Under the pieces are notes generated by a model. That model saw nothing but the letters and a program-made list of their open reading frames with translations, did no database searches and was not told where the DNA came from. Source: Armatimonas rosea (GTDB lineage: Bacteria; Armatimonadota; Armatimonadia; Armatimonadales; Armatimonadaceae). Taken from it: a stretch of 64,000 nt of DNA. This document shows positions 1,688 to 19,230 of the stretch, piece after piece. Where the stretch lies: the NCBI RefSeq assembly GCF_014202505.1, contig NZ_JACHGW010000001.1:992001-1056000 (forward strand), given 5' to 3'. The number at the start of each line of letters is the position of its first letter. Positions within the stretch are counted from its first letter, which is position 1. The position numbers and the translations under genes are program-made.

Positions 1688-2621
1688 TCAGCTGGCCGTC
1701 GGGGCCAAGCTTAGGGGCGCTCTTGCCAAAATCCGCCTGGGAGAGCGCCCTTACGAGGGTGAGGGCCTGCTTCTTGGGGTCGGGGAGTGGGCCGCCAGGG
1801 GAGCGCTGGAGCAGGGGATGGAGCTGGCCGCGCACAAACCTCCCCTCCTCATCCAGGGTGACCTGAAGGACGGCGGAGACCCCGCAGGGACCGCGTAGGT
1901 TCATCCGCCCGTAGGTGGCAAAGTTCCCCAGCGAGTAGGCGATCAGGTGCCCCTTGTAGAGCTCCATTCCCCGCAGGACATGCGGCCCGTGCCCGATCAC
2001 CAGCGAGGCGCCCGCCTCGATCACGGCGTGGGCAAAGCGCCGCAGGTCGCCGCGGGCCTCGGCGAAGAACCCCTCGGTGCCGCGGGGGACATGCTGGTGT
2101 GCCGCTCCCTCCGCGCCGCCATGAAACGAGACCACGACCCGCGAGCTCTGGGCGCGTGCTGCGGCCACGAGCCGTCGTGCGGTCGCGATATCGTTGAGGT
2201 TGGGCGAGATGGGGTTGGTCGCAAAGCCTAGAAAGGCCACTTCCTTGACCAGCACGGCCGTGCCACTCGCGCCCGCCGCTGCGATTTTGAGGCGCTTGAG
2301 GGTCTGGAGTGTCTGGGTGCGGCCCGTGGCCTGGAAGTCGCCTGCATGGTTGTTAGCGACGGACAGCACCTCAAAGCCGGCCTCTTGGAGCCACTTGCCG
2401 TAGCGTGTCGGGGTGCGAAAGGCGAAGCTATGGGCCGCGTTCGCCTTTGCCGGGGTGACCGTGCCACCGTCGCAGAGCGGCCCCTCCAGGTTGCCAAAGG
2501 CGATATCGGCGGCCCGAAGCAGCGCGGCAGCAGGCAGGAGGATGTTCTTTTGCGGGAGCCGGGGCGACGGCCAGTCGCTCCCCAGCATGATATCCCCGAC
2601 CGCGGCAATCGTGACCGGCAT
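1680..2621 (-). CDS. CapA-family metallophosphatase-like protein
   Basis: A 313-residue protein of the PGA_cap (CapA) family, a calcineurin-like phosphoesterase fold first known from poly-gamma-glutamate capsule synthesis. The family pattern is present in order: VGDIMLG near residue 8, NLEGPL, ANNHAGD, SFHGGAEG, then IGHGPHVLRGMELYKG and SLGNF. No signal peptide is visible, unlike many CapA proteins. It is the last gene of a tight minus-strand run: its ATG lies 1 nt after the stop of the glycosidase gene, which itself overlaps the Ntn-hydrolase gene. Coexpression with a glycosidase suggests polymer turnover rather than polyglutamate synthesis, since no capBC genes are near. Confidence 0.85.
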   Translation of the reverse strand: MPVTIAAVGDIMLGSDWPSPRLPQKNILLPAAALLRAADIAFGNLEGPLCDGGTVTPAKANAAHSFAFRTPTRYGKWLQEAGFEVLSVANNHAGDFQATGRTQTLQTLKRLKIAAAGASGTAVLVKEVAFLGFATNPISPNLNDIATARRLVAAARAQSSRVVVSFHGGAEGAAHQHVPRGTEGFFAEARGDLRRFAHAVIEAGASLVIGHGPHVLRGMELYKGHLIAYSLGNFATYGRMNLRGPCGVSAVLQVTLDEEGRFVRGQLHPLLQRSPGGPLPDPKKQALTLVRALSQADFGKSAPKLGPDGQLTT

Positions 2622-2622
2622 G

Positions 2623-3777
2623 CTACTTCACCTGAAACGGAACGTTGGCGGTCGCCGCGCCGCCGTGGCTATCGCGGACATAGACAAAGAGGCGGTAGGC
2701 TCCTGGTTCGGTGGGAGCAGCGAGGGTGAAGGGCTTGCCGGCCTCTCCCGGAAGCTCGGTGAGCCAGGCATTGTTCTCGCGGCGTAACTCCCAGCGCACC
2801 CGCACCGGCCCGCTCGCACGCACGGCGACTGTCGCAGAGACCGTGGCACCAGGCGCGACCGTCTTGCCCTCGGCGGTGCTGGTCAGGCTCACCAGCTCCG
2901 GGCAGGGCTTGGCAACGGGCTTGCCGGTCCACGCCTGAGTCAGCACATCCACCGAGGCGAGCTTCTCACTTGTTTTCGGGAGAAACATCCCAAACCAGGT
3001 CACGGTCCCCTCAACTTTATCATCCCAATGGAACACGTAGCTCCCCAGGCAGCTCGCCTGCCCCGCGACCGCGCGGGCGTAGCTCTCGGCGTAGCGCCGG
3101 GCCTTCTGGGTGCTGCTCTCCTCGCGGGGGGCGCCCCACTCGGTCTTGCCGACCTCCCAGGGGCCCAGCGGCCCAAACTCCGTGAGGACATAGGGCTTGG
3201 TCCAGCCCGCTTTTCTAAGGCGCTCGGGCAGGCTGGGGGCACCGCCGTAGGAGTTGATCCCCAGGATATCGATCGAGGGCGCGAGCTGCTTGAGCTGGGC
3301 GATCTTCTTATCGCTGATCTCGGCGACTACGGTCATGACCGGGTGGTCGGGGTCGGCCTTATGGACAGACTGCGCGGCCTGCTCCAGGTGCTTCCACATC
3401 GCCTCGCTCTCGGTATCGTCGAGGCCGACCTCCATCTCATTGCCCAGTGCCCAGCAGAGCAGCGCGGGGTGGTCTTTGTAGCGGGCGACATGGCCGTAGA
3501 CCGCCTCCAGCTGTCCCGCGACTGCCTTGGGATCGGTGTAGCGGAAGCCATGCTCTTTGTGGCCCAGCCAGATCCCCACGGTGACACTCAGCCCGAGGCG
3601 CTGGCACTTATCGAGCATCCCGCCCGCTTCATCGGCGCCCCAGGTGCGGATCGAGTTTCCGCCTGCCGCGACCAGGTCCTCCAGCAGGTGAGCACCTGCC
3701 GCCCCGCGGATAAAGTAGGGCTTGCCCTCGCGCTTGAGCTGCCAGCCGCTTGTTGTTTTTTCTAGTGTTGTCTTCAT
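2623..3777 (-). CDS. Glycoside hydrolase, clan GH-A (GH2-like TIM barrel) with C-terminal Ig-like domain
   Basis: A 384-residue protein. Residues 1-290 form a GH2-type catalytic barrel: FIRGAAGA and NSIRTWG at the start, the acid/base pair N113-E114 in LGNEME, and the predicted nucleophile E200 in LTEFGP. Residues about 300-384 look like an Ig/fibronectin-like beta domain (PVRVRWELRR, GAYRLFVYVRDSHGG). The N-terminal sugar-binding and Ig domains of full GH2 enzymes are missing and there is no signal peptide, so it should act inside the cell on a small glycoside. Its ATG overlaps the TGA of the Ntn-hydrolase gene, and CapA follows after 1 nt. The substrate cannot be deduced. Confidence 0.85.
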   Translation of the reverse strand: MKTTLEKTTSGWQLKREGKPYFIRGAAGAHLLEDLVAAGGNSIRTWGADEAGGMLDKCQRLGLSVTVGIWLGHKEHGFRYTDPKAVAGQLEAVYGHVARYKDHPALLCWALGNEMEVGLDDTESEAMWKHLEQAAQSVHKADPDHPVMTVVAEISDKKIAQLKQLAPSIDILGINSYGGAPSLPERLRKAGWTKPYVLTEFGPLGPWEVGKTEWGAPREESSTQKARRYAESYARAVAGQASCLGSYVFHWDDKVEGTVTWFGMFLPKTSEKLASVDVLTQAWTGKPVAKPCPELVSLTSTAEGKTVAPGATVSATVAVRASGPVRVRWELRRENNAWLTELPGEAGKPFTLAAPTEPGAYRLFVYVRDSHGGAATANVPFQVK

Positions 3778-4346
3778 ACTAGCTCCACTTTATAACAGAC
3801 TGCCGGGAGCCCGGTGCTGTCATTGAACTCCGCTGAGGCCGCAATCGCCTTGTTCGCGAGGTCCTCTGCCGTCAGCGACGGGTCGTCGTAGAGCGCCCAG
3901 AGGGCGCCCATGGCGTACTGCGAGCCGCTCCCGTAGGCGTAGAAGCGCGTGAAGGCCTGCACCAGCCGGTCGGAGTCTACCCCAAAGATGCCGTGGGGAC
4001 TGGCGATCAAGGAGTCAAAGCGCGTCGACTCCACGGCGTTGGAGTCGTCCTCGTTGGGGTTGAGGAAGTAGCGCTCTTTGCAGGCATGGTGGAGCATCAG
4101 CCAGGTCGCGTAGATATCGTCGGGGTCGGTGAACTTAGGCGCGGTCTTGAGGCTGCCAAAGTAGTTCTTGAGCATGTGGCGCGCGCTGGAGGGGCCACAG
4201 TAGGCGACAAAGCCCTTGCCCACGGGGACAATTTTCTGGTGGTTGACCACGTAGTCGGCGGTCTCTTTCTGGCTGCCCCACTTGGTAAGCGTATCGGCGG
4301 CGATAGCGGCCTGTTCGCCCTTACGGACCACGACAATCGTTGACAT
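3774..4346 (-). CDS. Proteasome-type Ntn hydrolase (HslV/BPH-like) with Ser at position 1
   Basis: A 190-residue protein of the proteasome beta/HslV superfamily. After removal of Met the chain would start S1-T2-I3-V4-V5-V6-R7-K8-G9, aligning with TTIVSVRR of HslV, and Asp17 falls in IAADTLTKWG as expected. The long middle (YFLNPNEDD, DSLIASPHGIFGVDS, YAYGSGSQYAMGALWALYDD) is the glycine-rich core of stand-alone bacterial beta-subunit homologues such as BPH. Codon 2 is TCA (Ser), where self-compartmentalising proteases of this fold normally have Thr. No HslU or other AAA unfoldase is adjacent. A TATAAT box ends 6 nt before the ATG, suggesting a leaderless mRNA for the whole operon. Confidence 0.85.
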   Translation of the reverse strand: MSTIVVVRKGEQAAIAADTLTKWGSQKETADYVVNHQKIVPVGKGFVAYCGPSSARHMLKNYFGSLKTAPKFTDPDDIYATWLMLHHACKERYFLNPNEDDSNAVESTRFDSLIASPHGIFGVDSDRLVQAFTRFYAYGSGSQYAMGALWALYDDPSLTAEDLANKAIAASAEFNDSTGLPAVCYKVELV

Positions 4347-15617: not shown

Positions 15618-16232
15618 ATGTCGTTTTCGTCTCGTCTTGCTCTTGCGCTCGTGCTGGTTTGTGGAACGGGGGTCGCCAGCCAGGCGCACACCACGGTCTA
15701 CACCGCGATTCTCTCGGGGCCGCTGTCATCGCCAGCCAATGCCTCGCCGGGGGTGGGCATTGCGACCGTCACCCTGGACTTGGACCTTGTGACACTGGAT
15801 GTCGATGTGACGTTCTCGGGGCTACAGGGAACGGTCGTCTCGGCGCAGATTCATGCGGCGACAGCAGCTCCGTTTGCGGGAACTGCGATTGAGGCGATTC
15901 CCTTCACGGGCTTTCCGACGGGGGGGAAGAGTGGCAGCTACACCCATAACTTCGACCTGACCGATGGCGGATCGTACACGGCGGGCTATCTTGCGGCCAA
16001 TGACCTAGGCAACATCCCCTCCACCATTGTCTCCGACTCGCTCAATGCGCTGGACCTCGCCATGGACGGTGGCAGGGCCTACGTCAATATCTACACCTCT
16101 GCGTTTCCGGGCGGCGAGATCCGTGGCTTCCTGGTTCCCGCCGCCGATGCGCCCGAGCCTACCCCGCTGCTCCTGATGGGGCTGGGCGGGCTGGCGCTGG
16201 TACGGCGGCGGCGGCGGCACACAGGGGCGTAG
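15618..16232 (+). CDS. CHRD-domain protein with PEP-CTERM-like anchor
   Basis: 204 residues; ATG 15618 follows a GGAGGG ribosome binding site. A signal peptide (MSFSSRLALALVLVCGTGVA) leads to a CHRD domain: YTAILSGPLSSPAN, VTFSGLQGTVVSAQIHA, LDLAMDGGRAYVNIYT, GGEIRGFL, as in chordin and bacterial surface proteins. The tail APEP-TPLLLMGLGGLALV-RRRRR has Pro-Glu-Pro, a hydrophobic helix and a basic end, the layout recognised by exosortases. No exosortase gene is in the window. Probably cell-surface attached; role unknown. Confidence 0.88.
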   Translation: MSFSSRLALALVLVCGTGVASQAHTTVYTAILSGPLSSPANASPGVGIATVTLDLDLVTLDVDVTFSGLQGTVVSAQIHAATAAPFAGTAIEAIPFTGFPTGGKSGSYTHNFDLTDGGSYTAGYLAANDLGNIPSTIVSDSLNALDLAMDGGRAYVNIYTSAFPGGEIRGFLVPAADAPEPTPLLLMGLGGLALVRRRRRHTGA

Positions 16233-16286: not shown

Positions 16287-16292
16287 TATACT
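16287..16292 (+). promoter_or_regulatory. -10 box TATACT, 7 nt before GTG 16300
   Basis: Good hexamer directly upstream of the GTG start of the GH43-glutaminase gene; predicts a leaderless GTG-initiated message. Confidence 0.5.
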
Positions 16293-16299
16293 GAGCCCT

Positions 16300-19230
16300 G
16301 TGAATCCACAAGAAAATCGGCGCACCTACACCAATCCCGTCTGGGCGGAAGACGCCCCCGACCCCTTTGTTCTGAGTGCGCACGGCAAGTTCTGGGCCTA
16401 CGCCACCGAGACCGCCAAGCACGGCAATGGCTTTCAAGTGCTGGAGTCGGCGGACCTGGTGCACTGGGTCCATCGGGGGACCTGCTTCACCCCGCCGTGG
16501 AGCAAGTCGCAGCTCTGGGCACCGGAGGTGATCGAGCGCGATGGCCTGCTCTGGATGACCTACTCGGCGCAGAACCCCAAGACCGGCAAGCGCGAGATCG
16601 GGATCGCCACGAGCAAGTCGCCCACGGGGCCCTTTGAGCACAAGGCCATTTTGGTGGTGCCCGATGCGAACCAAAAGCTTGGGGTGATCGACACGACCGT
16701 CTTTGTGGAGAGCGATGGCACGGCGTATCTGCTCTACTCCGAGGAAGACCCGCGGCGAATCGTCCTGCGTAAGCTCGCGGCGAACTGGCTCTCGACGGTC
16801 GGCCCGACGGTCGAGCTCTTGCGCCCCACGGAGCCCTGGGAGAAAGGGGTCACCGAGGCCCCGACTCTGCTCAAGCGCGACGGTAAGTACCACCTGCTCT
16901 ACTCGGCCAATGGCTTTGAGACCGGCAAGGGGGACTCGGGCTACTGCGTGGCGCACGCCATGAGCGAGACCCTCGCGGGGCCGTACAAGAAATTCGGGGC
17001 GATCCTAGCGCAGGAGCCGGGCCGTGTCTATGGGCCGGGGCACCAGTCTGTCGTGACAATCGGAAAAGACGACTGGCTGCTCTACCACGGCTGGAGTGAC
17101 CAAGGCGCGCCACGCTACGGCTCCAACCCAACCGGGCGGACGCTGCGGCTGGACCGGCTGGTCTGGCAGGACGGCATGCCGCAGCCGGTTGTCGCCAGCA
17201 CCACCCCGCAGCCCGCGCCCCATGTCCCCGCCGCCCCACGCGACCCGAGCCAGCCCAGCCACCGCGCCCCGGCGATCCCGCTCATCACCCACGACCCGTA
17301 CTTCTCGGTCTGGGCCTTTGGTGACAACCTCAACACCGACTGGGCGCGCCACTGGACCGGTGCGGTCAATGCGCTGGTCGGGCTGATCCGGGTGGATGGC
17401 ACGGCCTATCGCTGGTCCGGGCAGGGGCCGCAGAGTGTCGCACCGTTCCCACAGACCGGCTACACGATCAGTGCCACCCAGACCCGCTTCACCTTCGAGG
17501 GCCAAGGCGTCCGGCTTGGCGTCACCTTCACGTCGCCGCTCCTCCCCGATGACCTTGATGTGCTGAGTCGCCCGGCATCGTATATCACCGCCGAGGTGGT
17601 CGCCACCGATGGCAAGCCGCATGATGTGGCGCTCTACCTGGATATCACCGGCGAGTGGTGTGTCAACGATGTCGCGCAGCCCGTGGCTGCCACCCGGCGA
17701 AAAGTCGGCAATCTCGAGGTGCTGGCGATCGGAACCGCGGAGCAGCCCGTGCTGGGAAAGACCGGCGACAACCTGCGGATCGACTGGGGCTACGCCCAGC
17801 TCTCCAGCGAGAGCGCCGAGACCCGGATCGGCACCGACACGCTGGTGCGCGATGGCTTTATCCGCGACGGCAAGCTGCCCAGCGCCGACGACACCCGCTT
17901 CCCGCGCCCCGCCCGCGAGGACTGGCCCGTGCTGGCTGCGAGCTTCACGGGGCTCAAGGTCAGTACTCGCCCGGTCACGCGCCGCTGGGTGGTCTCCTAC
18001 GACGACGAGTTCTCGCTGGAGCATTTAGGCAAGCGTCTGCGTGGCTGGTGGCGGCGCAATGGGGCGGGGATCAACGACCTCGTGCAGGTGGCCCACAAAG
18101 ACGCCGATAGCCTGATCGCGCGCTGCACGGCCTTTGATAAGAAGATGCTGGCGGAGTGGACCGCGGTCGGGGGGGCGGGCTACGCCCAGCTCCTCGCACT
18201 GGCGTGGCGGCAGGCGATCTCCGCCCACAAGCTCGCGGCCGGCACCGATGGCCAGCCGGTGTTCTTCTCCAAGGAGAATTTCTCCAACGGCTGTATCGCG
18301 ACGGTCGATGTCACCTACCCGTCGGCGCCGCTCTTCCTGCGCTACGCCCCCGCGCTCCTCAAGGCCATGATCGAGCCGCTGGTGGCCTACGCCGAGACGC
18401 TGCGCTGGAAGTTCCCCTTCGCCCCCCACGACCTGGGCACCTACCCCAAGGCCAATGGGCAGGTCTACGGCGGCGGGGAGCGCGACGAGCGCGACCAGAT
18501 GCCGGTGGAGGAGTCGGGAAACCTGCTGCTGCTCACCGCCGCCCTGGCCCGCGCCGAGGGCAGTGTCGGCTTCGCCAAGAAGCACGAGAAGACGCTCTCC
18601 ACCTGGGCAAAGTATCTCTTAGAAAAGGGCCTCGACCCGGAGAACCAGCTCTGCACCGATGACTTTGCGGGGCACCTGGCGCACAACGCAAACCTCTCGC
18701 TCAAGGCGATCCTGGCGATTGGCGCGTGGGGTCAGCTCTGTGAGAGGCTCGGCCGCCCGGACGAGAGCAAACAGTTCCTGAGCGCCGCAAGAGAGATGGC
18801 GGGCAAGTGGCTGACCCTGGCCGGCGATGGCGACCACTTCCGCCTGGCGTTTGACCGACCGGGGACCTGGAGCCAGAAGTACAACCTGGTCTGGGACACG
18901 CTGCTGGGGCTGAACCTCTTCCCGCCACAGCTCGCCAGGACCGAGCTTGCCTTCTACCAGCGCCGCCAGATGCGCTATGGCCTGCCGCTGGACAACCGGC
19001 GCACCTACGCCAAGCTGGACTGGACGGTCTGGACCGCCACTCTCGCGGGGAGCCGCCCGGAGTTCGAGGCGCTTGTCAAGCCGCTCCTGCTCTGGGTGGA
19101 AGAGACCCCCACCCGCGTCCCCCTCACCGACTGGTACGAGACCACCGACGGCAAGCAAGTGGGCTTCCAAGCCCGCTCCGTGGTCGGAGGACTCTATCTG
19201 CCTGTGCTTAAGGCGCACTGGAAGCGGTAG
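16300..19230 (+). CDS. Fusion of a GH43-type glycosidase and a GtaA-like glutaminase/DUF4965 protein
   Basis: 976 residues from GTG 16300. Residues 1-290 form a five-bladed GH43 propeller: TYTNPVWAEDAPDPFVL holds the catalytic-base Asp, ELTEAP-like VTEAPTLLKRDGKYHLLY the acid Glu, and GPGHQSVV is also typical. After a Pro-rich linker (QPAPHVPAAPRDPSQPSHRA), residues about 320-976 match the glutaminase A-like DUF4964/DUF5127/DUF4965/DUF1793 series (ITHDPYFSVWAFGDNLNTDW, HWTGAVNALVGLIRVDG, WRQAISAHKL, DQMPVEESGNLLLL, YNLVWDTLLGL). No signal peptide is visible, although GtaA-like proteins are usually secreted. The fused architecture suggests carbohydrate rather than glutamine as substrate, but this is inference. 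Confidence 0.85.
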   Translation: MNPQENRRTYTNPVWAEDAPDPFVLSAHGKFWAYATETAKHGNGFQVLESADLVHWVHRGTCFTPPWSKSQLWAPEVIERDGLLWMTYSAQNPKTGKREIGIATSKSPTGPFEHKAILVVPDANQKLGVIDTTVFVESDGTAYLLYSEEDPRRIVLRKLAANWLSTVGPTVELLRPTEPWEKGVTEAPTLLKRDGKYHLLYSANGFETGKGDSGYCVAHAMSETLAGPYKKFGAILAQEPGRVYGPGHQSVVTIGKDDWLLYHGWSDQGAPRYGSNPTGRTLRLDRLVWQDGMPQPVVASTTPQPAPHVPAAPRDPSQPSHRAPAIPLITHDPYFSVWAFGDNLNTDWARHWTGAVNALVGLIRVDGTAYRWSGQGPQSVAPFPQTGYTISATQTRFTFEGQGVRLGVTFTSPLLPDDLDVLSRPASYITAEVVATDGKPHDVALYLDITGEWCVNDVAQPVAATRRKVGNLEVLAIGTAEQPVLGKTGDNLRIDWGYAQLSSESAETRIGTDTLVRDGFIRDGKLPSADDTRFPRPAREDWPVLAASFTGLKVSTRPVTRRWVVSYDDEFSLEHLGKRLRGWWRRNGAGINDLVQVAHKDADSLIARCTAFDKKMLAEWTAVGGAGYAQLLALAWRQAISAHKLAAGTDGQPVFFSKENFSNGCIATVDVTYPSAPLFLRYAPALLKAMIEPLVAYAETLRWKFPFAPHDLGTYPKANGQVYGGGERDERDQMPVEESGNLLLLTAALARAEGSVGFAKKHEKTLSTWAKYLLEKGLDPENQLCTDDFAGHLAHNANLSLKAILAIGAWGQLCERLGRPDESKQFLSAAREMAGKWLTLAGDGDHFRLAFDRPGTWSQKYNLVWDTLLGLNLFPPQLARTELAFYQRRQMRYGLPLDNRRTYAKLDWTVWTATLAGSRPEFEALVKPLLLWVEETPTRVPLTDWYETTDGKQVGFQARSVVGGLYLPVLKAHWKR

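Follow-up and report, generated by a model that had tools for sequence, protein, structure and literature searches.

A GH43 propeller fused to a GH116-like glutaminase A half in Armatimonas rosea: a probable bifunctional glycosidase

We analyzed a 64,000-nucleotide stretch of Armatimonas rosea DNA, hereafter the window (C1:992001-1056000 of assembly GCF_014202505.1), in which a single gene (16300..19230, + strand, as for all window features below) encodes a propeller of glycoside hydrolase family 43 (GH43) fused to a half resembling glutaminase A (GtaA). Structural modeling combined with sequence comparison indicated that the product is probably a bifunctional glycosidase, in which the GH43 propeller is combined with a retaining, exo-type half similar to GH116 and GH52, and not with a glutaminase.

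The gene starts with GTG, and its 976-codon frame is free of internal stops. The four Pfam domain matches given here all exceed the family cut-offs. The GH43 five-bladed propeller, also recognized by phmmer and Foldseek, occupies residues 10-294 (16327..17181; PF04616, E = 4.1e-54). It is followed by the three GtaA-family domains PF16334, PF17168, and PF16335 in this order, which correspond to DUF4964 at residues 319-375 (17254..17424), where the GtaA half begins, DUF5127 at residues 393-617 (17476..18150), which is mostly β-strands in the model, and the mostly helical GtaA_6_Hairpin domain of GH116/GH52 fold at residues 625-967 (18172..19200; E = 2.4e-133). The GtaA half overall spans residues 319-967. 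In the full-length model, built from a 17-sequence alignment, two folded parts are separated by a flexible Pro-rich linker at about residues 300-328 (17197..17283), which has a predicted local distance difference test score (pLDDT) below 50 and runs into the start of the DUF4964 match. Given an overall pLDDT of 77.3 and a predicted template-modeling score (pTM) of 0.63, the relative placing of the two halves in this model is not meaningful. There is no in-frame ATG, GTG, or TTG upstream of 16300, and a home-made heuristic found no signal-like hydrophobic stretch after the start. An earlier note on this DNA had described both parts in a single 976-residue chain, a Pro-rich joint, and the lack of a signal peptide, all of which agree with the present analysis. 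Its domain name DUF4965, by contrast, is not among the five Pfam families listed for the protein, the match being PF16335.

The GtaA half, modeled from a 94-sequence alignment (pLDDT 96.2, pTM 0.95), is predicted to adopt the GH116 fold over its whole length. All of the top 30 Foldseek rows belong to GH116, GH52, or the exo-β-D-arabinanase ExoMA2, with E-values from 2.4e-26 to 5.1e-19. Superposition with VIA-align 2 gave a Z-score of 37.2 over 626 residues (root-mean-square deviation, rmsd, 3.5) for TxGH116, 36.8 over 592 residues (rmsd 3.1) for GH52, and 33.3 over 611 residues (rmsd 3.2) for ExoMA2. GH52 and GH116 together form clan GH-O. In direct sequence comparison, no GH116 family of Pfam matched the fusion protein at E <= 0.1 and no PDB chain matched the GtaA profile at E <= 10; some GtaA relatives match GH116N weakly, below its cut-off. 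Alignment of the GtaA profile with that of 17 GH116-type relatives by hhalign yielded a probability of 97.5 and an E-value of 6.9e-12. Since only this profile-profile comparison links the two at the sequence level, the GtaA half is GH116-like and is not filed as GH116.

In TxGH116, the nucleophile is Glu441 and the acid/base is Asp593, according to the titles of PDB entries. The nucleophile of GH116 was aligned to Glu659 (18274..18276) of the fusion by hhalign at default and four other settings. Moreover, an ungapped slide of the TxGH116 nucleophile region along the GtaA profile scored 12.5 at this place versus -15.8 at the next, and none of 500 shuffles did as well. The same slide puts Asp452 of TxGH116 on Asp670 (18307..18309), both lying 11 residues from the nucleophile. 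As described for TxGH116 in PMC11375437, Asp452, in subsite -1, and His507 bind sugar hydroxyls, and Asp593 contacts the opened aziridine. His507 lies in a PHDLG motif and has a possible counterpart in His710 (18427..18429), in PHDLG as well; the best offset of the His507-region slide hits His710, with 68 of 500 shuffles as good. For the acid/base, hhalign at default placed its position on Asp788 (18661..18663), which is perhaps the acid/base of the GtaA half, Asp787 being the alternative. Glu659, Asp670, His710, and Asp788 are invariant in alignments of 130 and 94 rows, which include the fusion and do not include fungal GtaA sequences. Because Asp and His are kept as in TxGH116, the GtaA half may lean towards a pyranoside substrate. 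A GtaA counterpart of TxGH116 Arg792 was dropped as a candidate, as 268 of 500 shuffles were as good as the slide optimum.

The GH43 half matches PF04616 over model positions 1-288 of 288, with a score of 184.3 bits where the cut-off is 32.2. Its closest solved chain is 4qqs, HoAraf43 (phmmer 1.4e-38; Foldseek 2.5e-22 for 4qqs_B, with a template-modeling score of 0.84 to the target). Alignment with HoAraf43 revealed that the catalytic triad is intact, comprising the catalytic base Asp21 (16360..16362; HoAraf43 Asp17), the pKa modulator Asp131 (16690..16692; Asp126), and the catalytic Glu186 (16855..16857; Glu195), with roles as given in PMC4356313, and the Trp platform (Trp73) is also kept. 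HoAraf43 is active on p-nitrophenyl-α-L-arabinofuranoside, and its natural substrate is left unsettled by its authors (PMC4356313); the assignment of the GH43 half as α-L-arabinofuranosidase-like is for this reason a lean by analogy. Arabinan or arabinoxylan is a plausible substrate for the GH43 half only. With regard to a loss of catalytic residues in both halves, which the earlier note had considered, neither the GH43 triad nor the GtaA nucleophile is missing, and the GtaA acid/base is uncertain.

Elsewhere, GtaA halves recur together with glycosidases. Among 18 GtaA frames scanned with Pfam, two from Verrucomicrobiota carry a GH2 domain N-terminal to the GtaA half, in open frames of 1510 residues (L125:3036-7565) and 1378 residues (L147:2922-7055). 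The remaining loci of L001-L161, which are partly the same places, were screened only by phmmer with the GH43 half of the window. Other GH43 branches escape this screen, as did the GH43 gene of L104, a Pfam match at 3e-65. In Acidobacteriaceae TAA 166 (L161) and ZG23-2 (L104, L211), a GH43 gene lies directly upstream of GtaA; the genes of L104 and L161 represent a different branch, with 24-25% identity to the GH43 half of the fusion. The second gene after GtaA at L161 is α-L-arabinofuranosidase-like (ASD1, E = 5.5e-6). In addition, a GH116 match directly precedes GtaA in two genomes, G205 and G206; in G206 (L192), the GH116 frame covers 1-2553 and the GtaA frame 2505-4019, and G205 is similar.

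Further domains were seen in individual frames. The GtaA frame of L038 has CHB_HEX_C, Fn3-associated, and DUF642 domains, and at L040:3729-6623 the six-hairpin domain is interrupted by a concanavalin-A-like (Laminin_G_3) domain. Apart from these and L089, treated below, the remaining 13 of the 18 scanned frames gave no further match above a family cut-off. A frame of 1545 residues (L034:1211-5845, the same as L096:2373-7007) has about 870 residues ahead of the GtaA half, in which no Pfam family was found at E <= 0.01.

The neighborhoods point in the same direction. At the best 80 of 590 loci, less 7 at which the GtaA frame was not picked up, 61 co-directional neighbors lie within 300 bases of GtaA; these open reading frames (ORFs) were selected on length, with no test of whether they code. 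Ten of them belong to a glycosidase-type family at E <= 1e-35 (GH92, GH43, and 3-keto-disaccharide hydrolase, two each; GH38, GH76, GH109, and DUF2961, one each), where the tally counts each family as one protein, and GH127 appears in two neighbors at a looser cut. No such family occurs in 65 outlying ORFs of the same loci, a 66th (L158) being excluded (p = 0.0005). A comparison restricted to matched ORFs, 10 of about 20 neighbors versus 0 of 8 controls (p = 0.014), is the fairer one, because the 65 control ORFs yield only eight families with one member each.

The sugar reading of bacterial GtaA is already in print and thus not new. Schmerling et al. (2022; PMC9668830) described a fungal DUF4964-DUF5127-DUF4965-DUF1793 protein labeled by the probe JJB111, noted the HHpred similarity of such proteins to GH116 and GH52, found no glutaminase and a weak β-galactosidase activity of 0.85 U/mg for a Streptomyces homolog, and proposed glycoside hydrolase activity as a possibility for GtaA-type proteins. 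Not found in print were the fusion, the assignment of the nucleophile, and the recurrence with glycosidases; no GH43-glutaminase fusion is described in the titles or abstract starts of the papers listed by searches aimed at one. The earlier note's suggestion of a sugar-directed activity for bacterial GtaA-like proteins is supported by the fold, Glu659, the GH2 fusions, the glycosidase neighbors, and the published Streptomyces member. Its argument from the fused glycosidase leads to a supported reading, but this single fusion carries less of the weight than the other evidence does.

In the mechanism that we propose, the fusion is probably a cytoplasmic enzyme that trims oligosaccharides. The inverting GH43 site would remove a side sugar, probably arabinofuranose-like, from an imported oligosaccharide. 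The retaining GH116-like site, with Glu659 as the predicted nucleophile and perhaps Asp788 as the acid/base, would hydrolyze a neighboring β-type link on the same molecule, and the flexible Pro-rich linker would tether both active sites on one chain. We infer that both halves are active and cooperate on one substrate. A broader proposal, which we put forward tentatively and at somewhat less than even chances, is that the whole GtaA family, fungi included, consists of unrecognized retaining glycoside hydrolases related to GH116/GH52 with a Glu659-type nucleophile, that the fusion is a two-site cytoplasmic enzyme taking first an arabinofuranosyl cap and next the underlying sugar off one bound oligosaccharide, and that the glutaminase name is wrong throughout.

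Several observations weigh against the bifunctional glycosidase. The acid/base of GH116 is unmatched at the four other hhalign settings, and the slide of the Asp593 region best puts Asp593 on Cys785, three residues off, with Asp788 second and 31 of 500 shuffles as good. The published β-galactosidase activity of the Streptomyces member is low (PMC9668830). Work summarized in a review (PMC8399179) obtained fungal GtaA as a glutaminase that also has γ-glutamyl transpeptidase activity. At L089:4281-7037, a methyltransferase domain stands ahead of the GtaA half, either as a true fusion or as two overlapping genes, and this join speaks for no sugar role. In a whole-protein search of 61 genomes, made up of the one that holds the window and 60 relatives of the same phylum, the GH43-GtaA fusion occurs in one genome only, among the matches listed. 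Pairing of the two genes is rare as well: among 150 genomes of the Acidobacteriaceae, the L161-type GH43 occurs in 5 (E <= 1e-50) and the L104-type in 21 (E <= 1e-60), and GtaA lies within about 1.5 kb at 3 of 27 such GH43 loci. The close GH43 homolog adjoins TsaD in G014, and peptidase S9 and semialdehyde dehydrogenase in G036, none of which relates obviously to sugars. Finally, for 49 chosen ORFs of the window, no glycosidase family is found among the first 25 of 110 families listed.

The strongest alternative, which we nevertheless consider rather unlikely, is a recent fusion without cooperation, in which both halves are active glycosidases with unrelated substrates and the GtaA half lost its export incidentally. 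It gains from the distribution of the two halves in the phylum. Among the matches listed, a close GH43 homolog stands alone in nine genomes at 49%-58% identity, and the GtaA part occurs without GH43 at up to 60% identity in G014, a genome of the same family whose GH43 homolog is 55% identical. Eight of these nine genomes, G014 among them, also have GtaA, always on a different contig, and the ninth (G057) has no PF16335 match. Likewise, no sugar-use cluster was seen around the fusion gene among the same 25 families, and the rarity of GH43-GtaA pairs elsewhere fits this alternative. It is opposed by the Acidobacteriaceae gene pairs, albeit with a different GH43 branch, and by co-occurrence, GtaA being present in 8 of 9 genomes with the close GH43 homolog versus 23 of the 51 others (one-sided p = 0.017; tallied by hand with distant PF16335 matches excluded, and uncorrected for kinship). 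The co-occurrence is weak, because four of the nine genomes belong to one genus.

As no listed match spans both halves in the 60 relatives, the fusion looks lineage-specific; nor was a second one found in the 80 best loci elsewhere, a set that may leave out records of the window's own genome. The earlier note had looked to further GH43-GtaA fusions; none is listed in the relatives, but GH2-GtaA chains and GH43-GtaA gene pairs were found instead. In a set of 130 GtaA frames that includes the fusion, a signal-like stretch is present in at most 118, which is an upper bound because the loose test considers all start codons ahead of the domain. The GH43 homologs of G014, G179, and G187 start without such a stretch, like the fusion, and those of G036 and G045 have one. 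A likely origin is that a GtaA enzyme of the normally exported type became linked to a cytoplasmic GH43 by recent fusion. Ten neighbors at five loci of the GH43 homolog were scanned. A BNR-repeat protein comes after it in both G180 and G187, joined in G180 by the ABC transporter parts SBP_bac_1 (a binding protein) and two permeases; both contexts fit work on imported oligosaccharides. In G179 a helix-turn-helix regulator lies beside it.

It is also conceivable that only the GH43 half is catalytic and that the GtaA half has turned into a carbohydrate-binding or scaffold part. A fold by itself shows no activity, the GtaA acid/base is not firmly placed, and the published bacterial member is weak, all of which would suit such a loss. 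However, residues like Glu659, Asp670, His710, and Asp788, which are invariant in the 94 sequences, should disappear from a half in decay, and the GtaA half is still 60% identical to GtaA of G014, so that we regard degeneration as improbable.

That the GtaA half is truly a glutaminase or γ-glutamyl hydrolase, joined by accident to an unrelated function, seems to us very doubtful. This view draws on the fungal enzymes, though according to the review PMC8399179 disruption of a different gene, gahB, took away about 90% of koji glutaminase activity in A. sojae, on the single occurrence of the fusion among 61 genomes, and on the methyltransferase join of L089. It is contradicted by the GH116 fold and nucleophile, by the bacterial member devoid of glutaminase activity (PMC9668830), and by the joins and neighborhoods with glycosidases. 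No glutaminase family is listed for the 61 GtaA neighbors (first 25 of 73 families; all 18 at E <= 1e-35), though BPD_transp_2, a permease family whose name refers to amino-acid transport, occurs in two neighbors. An assembly or sequencing artifact is highly improbable, despite the lack of a second genome or locus with the same fusion among the matches listed: both domains are complete, over nine successive 300-base blocks that span the GH43/GtaA join, third-position guanine-cytosine content stays at 0.80-0.92, and the gene lies well inside a contig of >1 Mb in a 6.3-Mb genome of 19 contigs, so that no sign is seen of the frameshift or join that the earlier note had envisaged.

At the start of the gene, TATACT lies seven bases ahead of the GTG (window 16287-16300), and no Shine-Dalgarno-like stretch was seen nearby by eye; given these two features, the transcript is possibly leaderless. 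A promoter scan reported nothing. The upstream gene (window 15618-16232) ends in a PEP-CTERM-like tail, by eye. The genome as a whole has ten GH43 matches, fusion included, and one PF16335 match.

A PF16335 match (E <= 0.001) is present in 142 of 291 genomes of the phylum, and among the 80 best loci elsewhere the record titles mention Acidobacteria, Planctomycetota, Verrucomicrobia, Bacteroidales, Sphingomonas, and others. If the GtaA family consists of glycosidases, a large set of "glutaminase" annotations would be misleading, and metabolic models built on them would assign nitrogen and carbon flow wrongly. Together with the nucleophile, GH43 and GH2 as fusion partners narrow the candidate substrates to a short list.

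Compared with known systems, the fusion is a new domain combination of known kinds. Its GH43 half shares the base, modulator, catalytic Glu, and Trp platform with HoAraf43 (PDB 4qqs) at about 31%-32% identity. The GH2-GtaA chains of L125 and L147 likewise place a glycosidase N-terminal to the GtaA half, but from GH2 instead of GH43. Phchr2|3002168 and WP_074995790 of S. misionensis have the same GtaA architecture and the GH116/GH52 similarity found here by fold; the passages on them in PMC9668830 mention no GH43 half and name no nucleophile, and the fungal Phchr2|3002168 has a secretion signal. The GH52 β-xylosidases share the whole-length fold with the GtaA half (Z = 36.8) at about 13% identity, as do the GH116-type enzymes TxGH116, a β-glucosidase, and ExoMA2, an exo-β-D-arabinofuranosidase, also at about 13%. 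ExoMA2 is described as a retaining enzyme with Glu431 and Asp557, and has His446 and Arg483 where TxGH116 has Asp452 and His507 (PMC10509167). At these two positions the GtaA half instead carries Asp and His and resembles TxGH116, with which it shares the counterparts of Glu441 and Asp452 and the PHDLG motif.

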